Source: an uncultured Schlesneria sp. (GTDB lineage Bacteria; Planctomycetota; Planctomycetia; Planctomycetales; Planctomycetaceae). From it: a stretch of DNA of 64,000 bases. Location of the stretch: positions 1 to 64,000 of the forward strand of contig CAIQIR010000066.1 in NCBI GenBank assembly GCA_903871875.1, read 5' to 3'. The notes under the pieces are model-generated. The model worked only from the letters and a program-made list of their open reading frames with translations. It was not told where the DNA came from and searched no databases. Positions 16,505-20,505 of the stretch are shown here, one piece after another; positions within the stretch are counted from its first letter, which is position 1; each line of letters starts with the position of its first letter. Position numbers and translations under genes: made by a program.

Positions 16505-16646
16505 CGAGCGCCTTGGATCTGCCGCCAGCGAAATCACCTTGCGAAATGGCGCGAGCACAGATCGACCACCGATCTGTCAGCCGTTGATGGAACTGTCGCA
16601 GGGTATGTTGCCATTCGCTGGGCGAACTGACCATCGTTCGTCCAGC

Positions 16647-17003
16647 TTATTCCATTCGCGCACGATCGATCTCGAATTCAAAATCGGCAAATGGGACGAC
16701 CTCGTTTTCACCCAGGCGCGTATCTTGAGTGATCCGCTTTCCGTTGACGACGGTCCCGTTCGTGCAACCGAGGTCTCGCGCGAACGGACCCTCGGTCGCG
16801 ACGAATTCGGCGTACAGCTTCGACACTCTTGGATGCGGCAAACTCAGATTAATGTCGGTTCGGCGACCGACTGGGAACCGTCCACTGCGGGAATACGTTG
16901 AGTCTTACTATCGAGAGGTGTTAACGCCCTGAATAAGCCGGGCGGTCGCCGTCTCCGCGGGCGGATTCTCGGACGCCAATTCGGTGGGTCTCGTCGTGAT
17001 CAT
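16647..17003 (-). pseudogene. FHA-domain gene interrupted by tandem in-frame stops
   Basis: ATG 17003 overlaps the TGA of the large kinase gene as ATGA. The frame runs 31 codons, meets TAG (16910-16908) and TAA (16907-16905), then continues open for 85 more codons in the same frame to 16647. The second part is a clear FHA domain: RFPVGRRTDINLSLPHPRVS, then DLGCTNGTVVNGKRI, with the conserved Gly-Arg, Ser and Thr-Asn-Gly. The stops fall in the expected beta1-beta2 loop, since ARLIQGV before them fits strand 1. No ATG, GTG or TTG restarts upstream of the GR motif. FHA domains bind phosphothreonine, so a role downstream of the kinase is likely if the product is made. It may be decayed, mis-sequenced or read through. 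Confidence 0.7.
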
Positions 17004-19936
17004 CGAAACGAACTTTCATTCTGGCAAATCGAGTCGCCAAGTTGAGATTGCGGAATGTTCAAGGCGATTTGCTGGACCGATTCTTCGTTCGGCGTGTTAC
17101 CACTGGAAACCGGTCGCAAGTGCTGCACAAATTCCAACACTACGCCGAGATCGGACCAGATCTCCGAGGTGAGTAAAAGTTGATCGGGAGACGCCTCGAG
17201 GGCGAGTTGCTGAGTTCGATTGATCGTCGCTCCGAAATATTTTACTTCGTGACGGTCGCCGGTAACGAGCGCCGGTCCTCGATGCAATGCGCCGCACAAC
17301 GACCATTGACGCTGGGGGCGATTGGCTGACAGCACCGCGGACAACTCGCGAGCAGTTTTCAATGCCTGTGAAGGTTCCATGAAACTGGCCAGCACAACAC
17401 CCGTCGAATAGTCCACCACGGTACCGCCGCGCCGCTGGATCCGTCGTTCGACAATTCGCTGAAAATCCTGCAGTAACGAATAAGTTCCCGCATCCCCCAG
17501 TTCGCGAAAAATCTCGTCAATCCGAGCCAATTGAATCGTGAGAAAACTGGCGGTGGCAATCTCGAACAGTAATCCCGGTGCCAGGATCTGGTCGGGAAAT
17601 AAATCGCGAAACAACGGCAACGCCGTGACTTTGGCCGCGGTCAACGCTTCCGACCGGCGCAGCGTTCTCTCGATACGAATGACCTGCTCACCGGGAAAGA
17701 AGTTCTCCAAGGCCAGACTTTGGTGCCCCGATCGCAGCATCGCGATCGGCGTGCGATTGGCTCCTGGCACACAGCGAATCAGACCGTGACGCAGGCCGGC
17801 TTCGTTATCCACTTCGATTGGAATTGCGTACGGCAGCGAAGGACCGCGGGCCACATAGCTGCCCGTTTTCAGTGACAAGTCCAATAGCAATCGCTCGGTT
17901 GGTTCCAGACGCACCTGGGCAACAACATGAGGGAAATTCCCCGGCCCACCGGCACAATAGGTCTTCGCATCCGCCGATCGAAGCTCGGGATGGGCACGGA
18001 AAATCAACTCAAGAGAAGTGCTGAATTCGATATCGAATTTGATCTGACAGGCGGAGCAGTTGGCATGTTGTTCGATCTCGCGCAGCGTGTCTTTGGCTCC
18101 CGTCGGCAGTCGACAGGCCGGGCAGATGATGTCCCAATGCAGTGTCAACAGCCCAATACGGACGGCAAGCAGGCAAGCTTCCACGACGTCTTGTTCGGGC
18201 AATCCGAAACGACGCGCAAGGGCATACGGTTGGATTCGGGCCAGATCCTGTGCCGCGGCATTGATCAGCAGGTCACGGAAGAGATCAATGATGCCCGACG
18301 AAACGCCCGCCGCGCGCAATTCCCCCAGTCGCTGATCCAGTCGCTGGCGTTGAACTCGCTTCAGACCTGGCGGTTCCTGGAAGGCGTCCGTCAACCGGCC
18401 CGATGAGACTTTGCCACTTAACGTGTCATCAATACGGCGATAGATGCGATCGAGGTGACGCTTTCCTTTCAGACCCACTTCCAGCTTGGCGAGAAACTTG
18501 CCCAGAAGACCGCGCGGTTGGATTTTGACTTGATGATTGAGTTTGGTCCCCCCTTCGGGCAATGGGACCAGCTCGACCGAACTCATAAACCATTTGAAGG
18601 GTCCGGCAGGAAATTCTCGCAGTACGCTGAACTTCTGACCCTCGATCCATTCGAACGGATATTCTTCCCACTGCACGGTCATTCCCGCCAATCGGAACTG
18701 ACCGAACTTTCGAATTCGGCCGTCGGGCGCCGTCGTCGTTTCGTACGTGACCGGCGGCAATGCGGCGGCTTGATTGAAACGGTCAGTGTTGCTCACGAGC
18801 GGCCACAGCACCGCAGGACTCGAAGCCAGATCCCATTCAAATTCAGCATGGAACAAATTGGCCAGGTTGTGCGCAGGCAGCACGGGATGAATGACGAATT
18901 GCGACGATTCGCCGCTCTGAAATCGCAAAATCTCTTCCAGCACCGACGAAGCATCCGGCGGACGTTGACCCGGATGCTTGGCCAGCATCCGGCGAACCAG
19001 ATCGGCGATCCCGTCACTGATTGCCGGATTCAATTTCCGCACATCGATGGGTATATCGAAACAGTGTGCCGATGCGAGCTGAATCGGATCGGTCGCCATG
19101 AACGGTCGACGTCCGGTCAGCAGTTCAAAGAATGTTGTTCCGATCGCGTAGACGTCGGTGGCGGGAGACACCTCGTGTAGTCCGGTAAATTGCTCCGGAG
19201 ACATGTAGTACGGCGTACCGAGCAATGCACCCGTTTGGGTAAGTTTCAACGATTCAGACTGATCAACATGACGGGCCAGACCAAAGTCGGTCAGCTTGAC
19301 CACGGGCCGGTCTGTTGCGTCATCATCGTCGAGCAGAATATTTTCCGGCTTGATATCGCGATGTACCATCCCCTTCGCATGCGCCGTAACCAAAGCCCGA
19401 CACAGATCGCCAATGATATTTAGCGATGAACTTTCGTCAAAGGTCTCGTTCTTCTTAATCCATTGACGCAGATCGCCACCGCGGACAAATTCCATCACCA
19501 GATAGCGAGCCTCACCTTCGGTGCCAACGTCGAGCAAATTGGCAACGTGCGGACTTTTCGCCTCTTCGAGCAACCGGGCTTCTTTTTCAAACCGTCGCAG
19601 GGCATCGGGTTGTGACAGACAACCAGCCGCCAACACCTTGAGGGCCACTTCCTGATCAGTGGCAGTGTCGCGCGCATGGTAGACGACACCCATCCCCCCT
19701 TCACCCAGTTTCTTGATGATCTCATATCGACCAAGACACTTGACGACCGCCTCGGACGAGGTCGCTCGACTTCGCCCCACAATTGACGGTGTGTTGACGC
19801 AAGTCCGATCCAGATTCATCCCCGACAACTGTTTCATGTCGGGCAACTGCGTAGGGAACGATTGGGGCCCGGCGAAGGCTTGCGGCTCTTCACCGTTCGC
19901 TGCGTCAGGAGGTAGATTTGACATGATAATGCCCAT
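17000..19936 (-). CDS. Ser/Thr protein kinase with SRPBCC, DUF5939/zinc-ribbon and degenerate class III cyclase domains
   Basis: A 978-residue multidomain protein with no membrane segment. Residues about 70-340: active-looking Hanks kinase with GEGGMGVVYHA, catalytic Lys 100, HRDIKPEN (192-199) and DFG (217-219). Residues about 362-505: SRPBCC/START-like domain (FEWDLASSPAVLWPLVSNTD). Residues about 535-735: DUF5939-like region with a zinc ribbon, Cys 605/608 and 627/630. Residues about 795-935: class III nucleotidyl-cyclase fold (LHRGPALVTGD, KYFGATINRTQQL). The two metal-binding aspartates appear replaced (Arg about 805, Thr about 845), so this domain is probably a nucleotide or signal sensor rather than a cyclase. 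ATG 19924 is an alternative start. An FHA gene follows by ATGA overlap. Confidence 0.88.
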   Translation of the reverse strand: MGIIMSNLPPDAANGEEPQAFAGPQSFPTQLPDMKQLSGMNLDRTCVNTPSIVGRSRATSSEAVVKCLGRYEIIKKLGEGGMGVVYHARDTATDQEVALKVLAAGCLSQPDALRRFEKEARLLEEAKSPHVANLLDVGTEGEARYLVMEFVRGGDLRQWIKKNETFDESSSLNIIGDLCRALVTAHAKGMVHRDIKPENILLDDDDATDRPVVKLTDFGLARHVDQSESLKLTQTGALLGTPYYMSPEQFTGLHEVSPATDVYAIGTTFFELLTGRRPFMATDPIQLASAHCFDIPIDVRKLNPAISDGIADLVRRMLAKHPGQRPPDASSVLEEILRFQSGESSQFVIHPVLPAHNLANLFHAEFEWDLASSPAVLWPLVSNTDRFNQAAALPPVTYETTTAPDGRIRKFGQFRLAGMTVQWEEYPFEWIEGQKFSVLREFPAGPFKWFMSSVELVPLPEGGTKLNHQVKIQPRGLLGKFLAKLEVGLKGKRHLDRIYRRIDDTLSGKVSSGRLTDAFQEPPGLKRVQRQRLDQRLGELRAAGVSSGIIDLFRDLLINAAAQDLARIQPYALARRFGLPEQDVVEACLLAVRIGLLTLHWDIICPACRLPTGAKDTLREIEQHANCSACQIKFDIEFSTSLELIFRAHPELRSADAKTYCAGGPGNFPHVVAQVRLEPTERLLLDLSLKTGSYVARGPSLPYAIPIEVDNEAGLRHGLIRCVPGANRTPIAMLRSGHQSLALENFFPGEQVIRIERTLRRSEALTAAKVTALPLFRDLFPDQILAPGLLFEIATASFLTIQLARIDEIFRELGDAGTYSLLQDFQRIVERRIQRRGGTVVDYSTGVVLASFMEPSQALKTARELSAVLSANRPQRQWSLCGALHRGPALVTGDRHEVKYFGATINRTQQLALEASPDQLLLTSEIWSDLGVVLEFVQHLRPVSSGNTPNEESVQQIALNIPQSQLGDSICQNESSFR

Positions 19937-20058: not shown

Positions 20059-20505
20059 GTGTTGAGCAAACGCAGTACGCCGGGATGGCCGTTTTTCAAT
20101 TGGCACGCAAGAAAGCCCCCCGCTGACTCTTCTGGTCGTACGGACTTTGACGGTAACAACCACCACGCCGACTGGCAGCATCAATTCATGACCGGCGCCC
20201 GCACGATGTTCTGGATGAGGGTCTCGGAAGGACACGCACAAGCAAACCTGGCCTTGGGAGATCTGAAGAAAACGGGTGACCAGTTCATCTTCGGTGCGGA
20301 AATTGACGTTCCCTTGAATCACTATCTTGCAATCTACGGCCAGGCGAACTTCATCAGTCCTGCGGACTCCGGTACCGTCGATTCGTACCTGGGTTTGGCC
20401 TACTATCCGGGAGGTCATGCGTTCCCGGCGATGCGCAATCCGTTCACACCGCTGTTGTCGCTGGCGAACAGCACCATGTTCGCGACGAATATCAGCCGTC
20501 ACTAA
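20059..20505 (+). pseudogene. C-terminal fragment resembling planctomycete DUF6666-type protein
   Basis: The last 90 or so residues (FIFGAEIDVPLNHYLAIYGQ, then SYLGLAYYPGG and PLLSLANSTMFATNISRH) look like the C-terminal beta-strand end of a large planctomycete family of putative outer-membrane proteins. The expected 150 or more N-terminal residues are absent: the frame is closed at 19957 and the divergent kinase gene begins at 19936. The first 45 residues from GTG 20059 show no recognisable pattern. It is most simply a truncated remnant; family assignment is from memory of the pattern only. Confidence 0.4.

Follow-up and report, generated by a model that had tools for sequence, protein, structure and literature searches.

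A predicted serine/threonine kinase of Schlesneria carrying an SRPBCC domain, a DUF5939 region, and a degenerate class III cyclase domain

The stretch of DNA analysed here (hereafter the window) comprises 64,000 nucleotides of an uncultured Schlesneria sp., and holds at 17000..19936 of its minus strand an open reading frame (ORF) with an ATG start and no internal stops. Its product of 978 residues, supported by an AlphaFold model (mean pLDDT of 86.4, with 72 aligned sequences as input), combines a kinase domain, an SRPBCC domain, a DUF5939 region, and a cyclase fold. This domain order, proposed in an earlier reading of the letters alone (the original prediction), is borne out by Pfam, Foldseek, and the comparison of a family profile with the adenylyl cyclase Ma1120. 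All coordinates given below for parts of this gene refer to the minus strand.

The four domains of the protein

The Ser/Thr kinase domain comprises residues 68–336 (18929..19735), as indicated by Pfam, by its motifs, and by its relatives in the Protein Data Bank (PDB) and Foldseek. PF00069 (Pkinase) matches residues 71–327 with an E value of 8.5e-53, and weaker kinase-like models overlap the same stretch. Alignment confirmed the complete set of motifs that had been predicted—Lys100, HRD at 192–194, and DFG at 217–219—and the protein has the VAIK Lys, the HRD Asp, the DFG Asp, and the kinase fold of a Hanks-type Ser/Thr kinase. StkP, PknB, and PknA are the best PDB sequence matches for this domain, and all 50 matches listed by Foldseek for the whole-protein model are kinases. 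No membrane segment is evident, since the highest 19-residue Kyte–Doolittle mean is only 1.69, in keeping with the cytoplasmic location first proposed. The source genome holds a large kinome: a search of it with the full-length query gave 53 matches, almost all of which lie within the kinase domain. It also encodes a second kinase–cyclase fusion of 1454 residues (L192, 3266–7630 of contig G000:C11), whose cyclase motifs look degenerate by eye.

The SRPBCC (Bet v 1-like) domain, at about residues 358–510 (18407..18865), was recognised through Foldseek and through matches of PF10604 in relatives. A Pfam search of the window protein itself gave no SRPBCC match, and PF10604 matched 12 of the 64 scanned family members, a set that includes the unmatched window protein. 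The AlphaFold model of residues 350–772 (mean pLDDT 92.3) retrieved PR-10/Bet v 1 structures from the PDB with Foldseek (best E 1.8e-7, probability 1.00), at moderate target TM-scores (mostly 0.46–0.60, with 0.46 for the top match and a maximum of 0.60 among the 50 matches listed), and the region is predicted from this model to adopt the SRPBCC/START-like helix-grip fold. The DUF5939 region follows at about residues 527–760 (17657..18358), with its outer limits taken from the AlphaFold model; PF19363 matches residues 537–657 with 56 bits (gathering cut-off 22.5), covering only positions 8–128 of the 281 of the profile. Sequence searches of the PDB with the SRPBCC and DUF5939 profiles returned one insignificant match and none, respectively. 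Within the DUF5939 region, Cys605, Cys608, Cys627, and Cys630 (18047..18124) are invariant across the 72 aligned rows defined below, a Cys4 motif that fits a putative zinc ribbon, as had been suggested.

The C-terminal domain, at about residues 791–948 (17093..17566), was delimited by the family profile against Ma1120 and by the secondary structure of the model. The profile of the family matches Ma1120 with an E value of 2.2e-23, homology that extends across the domain and points to a class III nucleotidyl cyclase fold. The window protein alone gives no Pfam cyclase match and only a weak one in NCBIfam (LipJ, E 0.023), and PF00211 (Guanylate_cyc) matches 29 of the 64 scanned members, the window protein not being among them.

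The residues that define the enzyme are largely missing from this domain. Gln802 (17531..17533) and Gly846 (17399..17401) occupy the positions of the two metal-binding aspartates; the original prediction was right that both are replaced, although it placed the replacements at Arg 805 and Thr 845, off by three and one. According to passages of a report on Ma1120 (PMC4215837), the residues of interest in this enzyme are K101, D157, A164, and R168. These align with Asp842 (17411..17413), Lys899 (17240..17242), Asn906, and Gln910 of the window protein, so that the adenine-reading Lys and Asp are both lost and, of the transition-state pair, the Asn is present and the Arg is replaced by Gln. Since Ma1120 is active despite an Ala at the Asn position, as stated in the same passages, this Asn is no absolute test of catalysis. 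Catalytic aspartates at shifted positions were ruled out, as aligning the motifs to Ma1120 and to the kinase-free homologues gave the same result. From these residues, the cyclase domain of the window protein is predicted to be catalytically dead.

Distribution of the fusion and loss of the cyclase residues

A scan of named genomes confirmed 177 relatives, of which the best 80 by similarity to the query were used; nine loci with cut ends or an incomplete kinase were dropped, and with the window included 72 kinase-fused rows were aligned, a set that leans towards the window protein because of this choice by similarity. The two closest relatives are Schlesneria metagenome-assembled genomes, and the others belong to Planctomycetota and to records titled Deltaproteobacteria, Myxococcales, Kofleriaceae, Polyangia, Polyangiaceae, and Sandaracinaceae. 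A second sample, chosen independently of similarity to the query, comprised 397 genomes of the window's class. DUF5939 is present in 66 of them (69 matches counting the window's own), and all 68 other ORFs match the C-terminal 633 residues of the window protein. A kinase domain is found in 65 of these 68, the remainder being L052, which is kinase-free in its ORF, and L079 and L090, whose 5' ends are cut. In this class, DUF5939 proteins are thus normally fused to a kinase. The expectation that the addition of kinase and SRPBCC domains would be unusual is contradicted by these counts and by the presence of the fusion in records titled Myxococcales, Kofleriaceae, Polyangia, and Sandaracinaceae. 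With the full-length protein as query, plasmids gave no match at E 1e-60.

Of the 68 class ORFs, five that have no cyclase end were dropped, leaving with the window an alignment of 64 rows, and the exclusion of L052, L079, and L090 from it gives 61 fused members, which share 42 rows plus the window with the 72-row set. In a phylum sample, DUF5939 occurs in 49 of 392 genomes, 7 of these from the window's own class, and all 51 matches outside the class were examined. Two lack a cyclase end (L236 and L242), five carry a kinase (L225 = L254, L246, L247, L248, and L251), and L224 = L252 and L230 = L253 (5'-cut at contig ends) and L239 (frame broken by a stop) were set apart. The remaining 41 ORFs, together with L052, make up 42 kinase-free forms with a visible 5' end, marked by an upstream stop. 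Long N-termini without a kinase match were seen in three kinase-free ORFs (L219 = L255, L236, and L241).

Loss of the cyclase residues is associated with kinase fusion. Both metal aspartates together are found in none of the 72 fused rows (the first in 6, the second in 24, with Glu at the second in 33), in none of the 61 fused members of the class sample, and in none of the five kinase-bearing ORFs outside the class. In these five, the two positions read Arg/Glu (L225), Asp/Glu (L247), Arg/Glu (L246), Arg/Gly (L248), and gap/Glu (L251, with a partial kinase). L246 and L248, both from one genome (G439), show the reverse order SRPBCC–DUF5939–cyclase–kinase, with complete Lys, HRD, and DFG motifs and with the cyclase residues gone. 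All six residues—the two metal aspartates, the Lys/Asp pair, and the Asn/Arg pair—are retained in 41 of the 42 kinase-free ORFs, the sole exception being L213 (Asp/Glu, and Arg for Lys), as well as in the three incomplete loci that had been set apart. That the relatives without a kinase retain these residues suggests that the cyclase fold has been converted into a regulatory part of the kinase.

A quick tree built on the SRPBCC plus DUF5939 regions separates the fused (73) from the free (18) rows by one branch with a Shimodaira–Hasegawa-like approximate likelihood ratio (SH-aLRT) support of 100, with L052 and L223 on long branches. In a larger tree of 112 rows, the kinase-free forms still fall together (support 83), the forms with an N-terminal kinase make up another side (46), and the two proteins with a C-terminal kinase lie between these groups. 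The pattern, though it spans two domain orders, requires no more than one loss, which would have preceded or accompanied the joining of the kinase.

Taken as a whole, these observations are best explained by a Hanks-type kinase that would be controlled by its own C-terminal half, including the dead cyclase domain, an explanation that has somewhat the better of the odds. The cyclase domain could also still serve catalysis as one half of a heterodimer, in the manner of the mammalian adenylyl cyclase C2 half, with a separate cyclase supplying the metal aspartates. C2-type halves lack the metal aspartates and keep the base-reading pair, and most of the family does retain this pair. A candidate partner is moreover encoded in the same genome: L194 (G000:C21), an ORF of 636 residues with an FHA-like N-terminus, in which the metal aspartates and the transition-state Asn and Arg look complete by eye, so that the source genome can probably make a cyclic nucleotide. 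However, the transition-state Asn and Arg occur together in just 4 of the 72 and 2 of the 61 fused rows, the window protein lacks both the Arg and the adenine pair, and no recurrent cyclase family appears among the neighbouring genes in the top rows of a neighbour clustering judged by eye. A catalytic heterodimer is accordingly regarded as very improbable.

The adenine-reading positions behave differently from the metal positions. In the 72-row set, Lys is found at 842 in 62 rows, Asp at 899 in 64, and both in 60; of 135 columns ranked by conservation, these two stand at 11 and 9, whereas the metal positions rank 103 and 42, the Asn 94, and the Arg 86. According to passages of PMC4886424, Lys/Asp pairs of this kind in adenylyl cyclases contact adenine at N1 and N6, and their persistence favours, for much of the family, a non-catalytic domain that has retained its adenine site. 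The proposal of a non-catalytic nucleotide sensor is a reasonable hypothesis for the family, given that the pair is retained in 60 of 72 and 44 of 61 rows, and is at its weakest for the window protein itself. In the clade formed by the window, L106, L107/L044, and L073, the pair is swapped reciprocally, reading Asp/Lys in the window and L106, and Asp/Arg in L107/L044 and L073.

This swap bears on a simpler possibility, namely that the cyclase domain is a structural dimerisation module only, in which Lys and Asp form a fold-stabilising salt bridge and which binds no nucleotide. Passages of PMC4886424 state that class III cyclases work as dimers, and the pairing of Asp842 with Lys899 or Arg899 could preserve an ion pair, though not the reading of adenine, so that for the window clade a structural role is an equal reading. 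Selection for an ion pair alone, however, predicts that reversals should be common, while among the 72 rows only the window clade is reversed and Lys/Asp persists in the 60 mentioned. A purely structural role of the domain is possible, though distinctly less probable than control of the kinase by its C-terminal half.

Some relatives depart from the window protein in their kinase domains. The kinase-like domain of L048, a protein that bears a TPR tail and lies at the edge of its contig, may be dead, since N, HGG, and EIN are aligned with its three motifs; L074 and L083 hold DLG in place of DFG. Many relatives are long forms bearing a second, N-terminal kinase-like domain, apparently dead, which the window protein lacks. 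The N-terminal 200–420 residues of L038, L039, L042, and other long forms make up a tandem pseudokinase–kinase arrangement, in which, of 28 aligned rows, 19 have Arg for the catalytic Lys and 4 retain the HRD Asp, in an alignment that is loose in several rows. This trait requires at least three changes on the SRPBCC plus DUF5939 tree and at least four on another tree.

Decayed neighbouring genes

Two gene remnants flank the kinase gene. Immediately downstream, at 16566..17003 on the minus strand, lies a decayed FHA-EAL gene, whose ATG overlaps the stop codon of the kinase (ATGA). Its FHA remnant is interrupted by three in-frame stops and has Tyr in place of the FHA His, and a search for the EAL part after the kinase gene gave no match. 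Upstream, at 20059..20505 on the plus strand, only the C-terminal end of a truncated DUF6666 gene is left (match at 20167–20499, with 82% identity to L073), which scores 23.4 bits, under the Pfam cut-off of 27. The downstream gene is a pseudogene in the window and is intact beside the kinase in L073, of the same genus; both FHA and EAL matches were obtained with Pfam in L073 and L044, and a DUF6666 match in L073.

An FHA-EAL gene stands immediately downstream of the kinase, on the same strand, in 16 of the 57 class loci that extend 1000 bases or more beyond it, a count that includes L097 and L098, in which the open frame overlaps that of the kinase. In 21 of 68 class loci, a DUF6666 gene is no more than about 1.2 kb away. 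In all 22 aligned FHA-EAL proteins, Gly41, Arg42, Ser56, His59, and Asn78 of the FHA domain and Glu162, Asn215, Glu245, Asp274, Asp275, Lys295, Glu331, and Gln351 of the EAL domain are invariant, positions that we take to be the key functional residues of both domains. FHA-EAL proteins occur in 115 of the 397 class genomes at E 1e-60 or better, so that most of them are unlinked to this kinase, and the source genome itself holds one with an open frame at G000:C11, away from the kinase gene. A mirror image of the window was found in the same-genus genome G359, where an FHA-EAL gene (L195, 5590–6736 of G359:C115) lies beside a short DUF6666 remnant, with about 25 residues matched, and the kinase is missing.

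The condition of both neighbours raises the possibility that the kinase gene is decaying as well, and that its odd residues reflect relaxed constraint, as the absence of such a kinase from G359 might also suggest. Against this, 978 codons are open, and the kinase domain is 86% identical to that of L106, with a nonsynonymous divergence (dN) of 0.09 and a synonymous divergence (dS) of 1.26. For the whole protein, dN is 0.18 against L106 and 0.23 against L073, nonsynonymous change is low in every domain, and synonymous sites are near or at saturation; with this qualification, the values indicate that the gene is under constraint. Furthermore, Gln802, Gly846, and Asp842 are common to L106, L073, and L107/L044, and they predate the decay of the FHA-EAL gene, since they are shared by a clade in which L073 and L044 keep this gene at full length. 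Decay of the kinase gene is thus an improbable explanation.

A proposed mechanism and its known relatives

According to the preferred explanation of kinase control, a kinase was joined to a pre-existing SRPBCC–DUF5939–cyclase enzyme. The cyclase would then have lost catalysis and been retained as a dimerising control domain, probably binding adenine nucleotides in most relatives. The resulting protein would be a Hanks-type Ser/Thr kinase, probably soluble, whose activity would be set by the SRPBCC pocket, the zinc-ribbon DUF5939 region, and the dead cyclase domain. The output in some of the relatives would probably be the phosphothreonine-dependent docking of the FHA-EAL phosphodiesterase encoded next door, linking the kinase to cyclic diguanylate (c-di-GMP). 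Because this adjacent partner gene has decayed in the window, the kinase of this organism must use another substrate, possibly the stand-alone FHA-EAL protein encoded elsewhere in its genome. A bolder form of this model proposes that a DUF5939 adenylyl cyclase, on being joined to a kinase, became a non-catalytic adenine-nucleotide receptor gating the phosphorylation of threonine, which would recruit the FHA-EAL protein and convert adenine nucleotide levels into a c-di-GMP signal, the Schlesneria clade having changed or lost the ligand and the window's genome also the output partner. In this full form, the model is tentative and rather unlikely. What the computation shows are the domains, the lost residues, the link between their loss and kinase fusion, and the neighbouring FHA-EAL gene with its decay; kinase activity, dimerisation, the binding of nucleotides or ligands, and docking that depends on phosphorylation are inferred.

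Several observations weigh against control of the kinase by its C-terminal half. The second metal position still holds Asp or Glu in 57 of the 72 fused rows, and the adenine pair is retained in only 44 of the 61 class members and in 2 of the 5 outside-class kinase ORFs (L225 and L247). Nucleotide binding is doubtful in the window clade, where this pair is lost, and within that clade the cyclase domain is less conserved than the other three. Since the trees group the kinase-bearing forms, the association between loss and kinase amounts to about one evolutionary observation, and the deep branches of the larger tree are weakly supported. With regard to the output, 41 of 57 loci have no FHA-EAL gene next door, and G359, without any DUF5939 match, keeps its FHA-EAL gene in the absence of the kinase. 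Nucleotide sensing is, on balance, plausible for the family and weak for the window protein.

Among the papers listed by literature searches, no title or abstract describes this architecture, which is real and conserved across relatives, and no paper naming DUF5939 was found in the collection searched. In the main text of a study of planctomycete Ser/Thr kinases (PMC11032199), the words "cyclase" and "SRPBCC" do not occur.

Among known proteins, the nearest solved relatives of the kinase domain are bacterial Ser/Thr kinases of the PknB/StkP type, from which the window protein differs in its C-terminal half and in having no evident membrane segment. It does not belong to the Stk1/PknB PASTA kinases (NF033483), reaching 278.4 bits against a cut-off of 450. 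The TOMM kinase/cyclase fusion (TIGR03903) resembles it, by the name of the model, in joining a kinase and a cyclase in one bacterial protein; membership in this family was likewise rejected, with 117.7 bits against a cut-off of 705.75 and the best stretch lying within the kinase only. Class III adenylyl cyclases of the Ma1120 type (Mycobacterium avium, PDB 4wp8) hold a domain homologous to the C-terminal one, in which the window protein replaces both metal aspartates, the adenine pair, and the Arg.

The closest counterparts of the C-terminal part are the kinase-free SRPBCC–DUF5939–cyclase proteins, such as L211, L222, L232, and, in the window's own class, L052, which have the same three domains in the same order. 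These proteins, however, carry no kinase in their ORFs, and their cyclase residues are complete in all those examined save L213. Nearly all of them come from other classes of Planctomycetota, and ten (L201–L210) also lack an SRPBCC match. One DUF5939–cyclase module with and without a kinase, having lost catalysis only in the kinase-bearing lineage, offers a natural comparison, in which the conversion of an enzyme domain into a regulatory one could be studied, as could the question of whether bacterial kinases can be controlled by a former cyclase.

Receptor guanylyl cyclases also hold a kinase homology domain and a cyclase in one chain, with a dead kinase fold and an active cyclase. In the window protein the roles are inverted, the kinase motifs being complete and the cyclase apparently dead, an analogy rather than a kinship of the whole chain. 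The control of a kinase by a former cyclase would thus be the reverse of the arrangement in these receptors.

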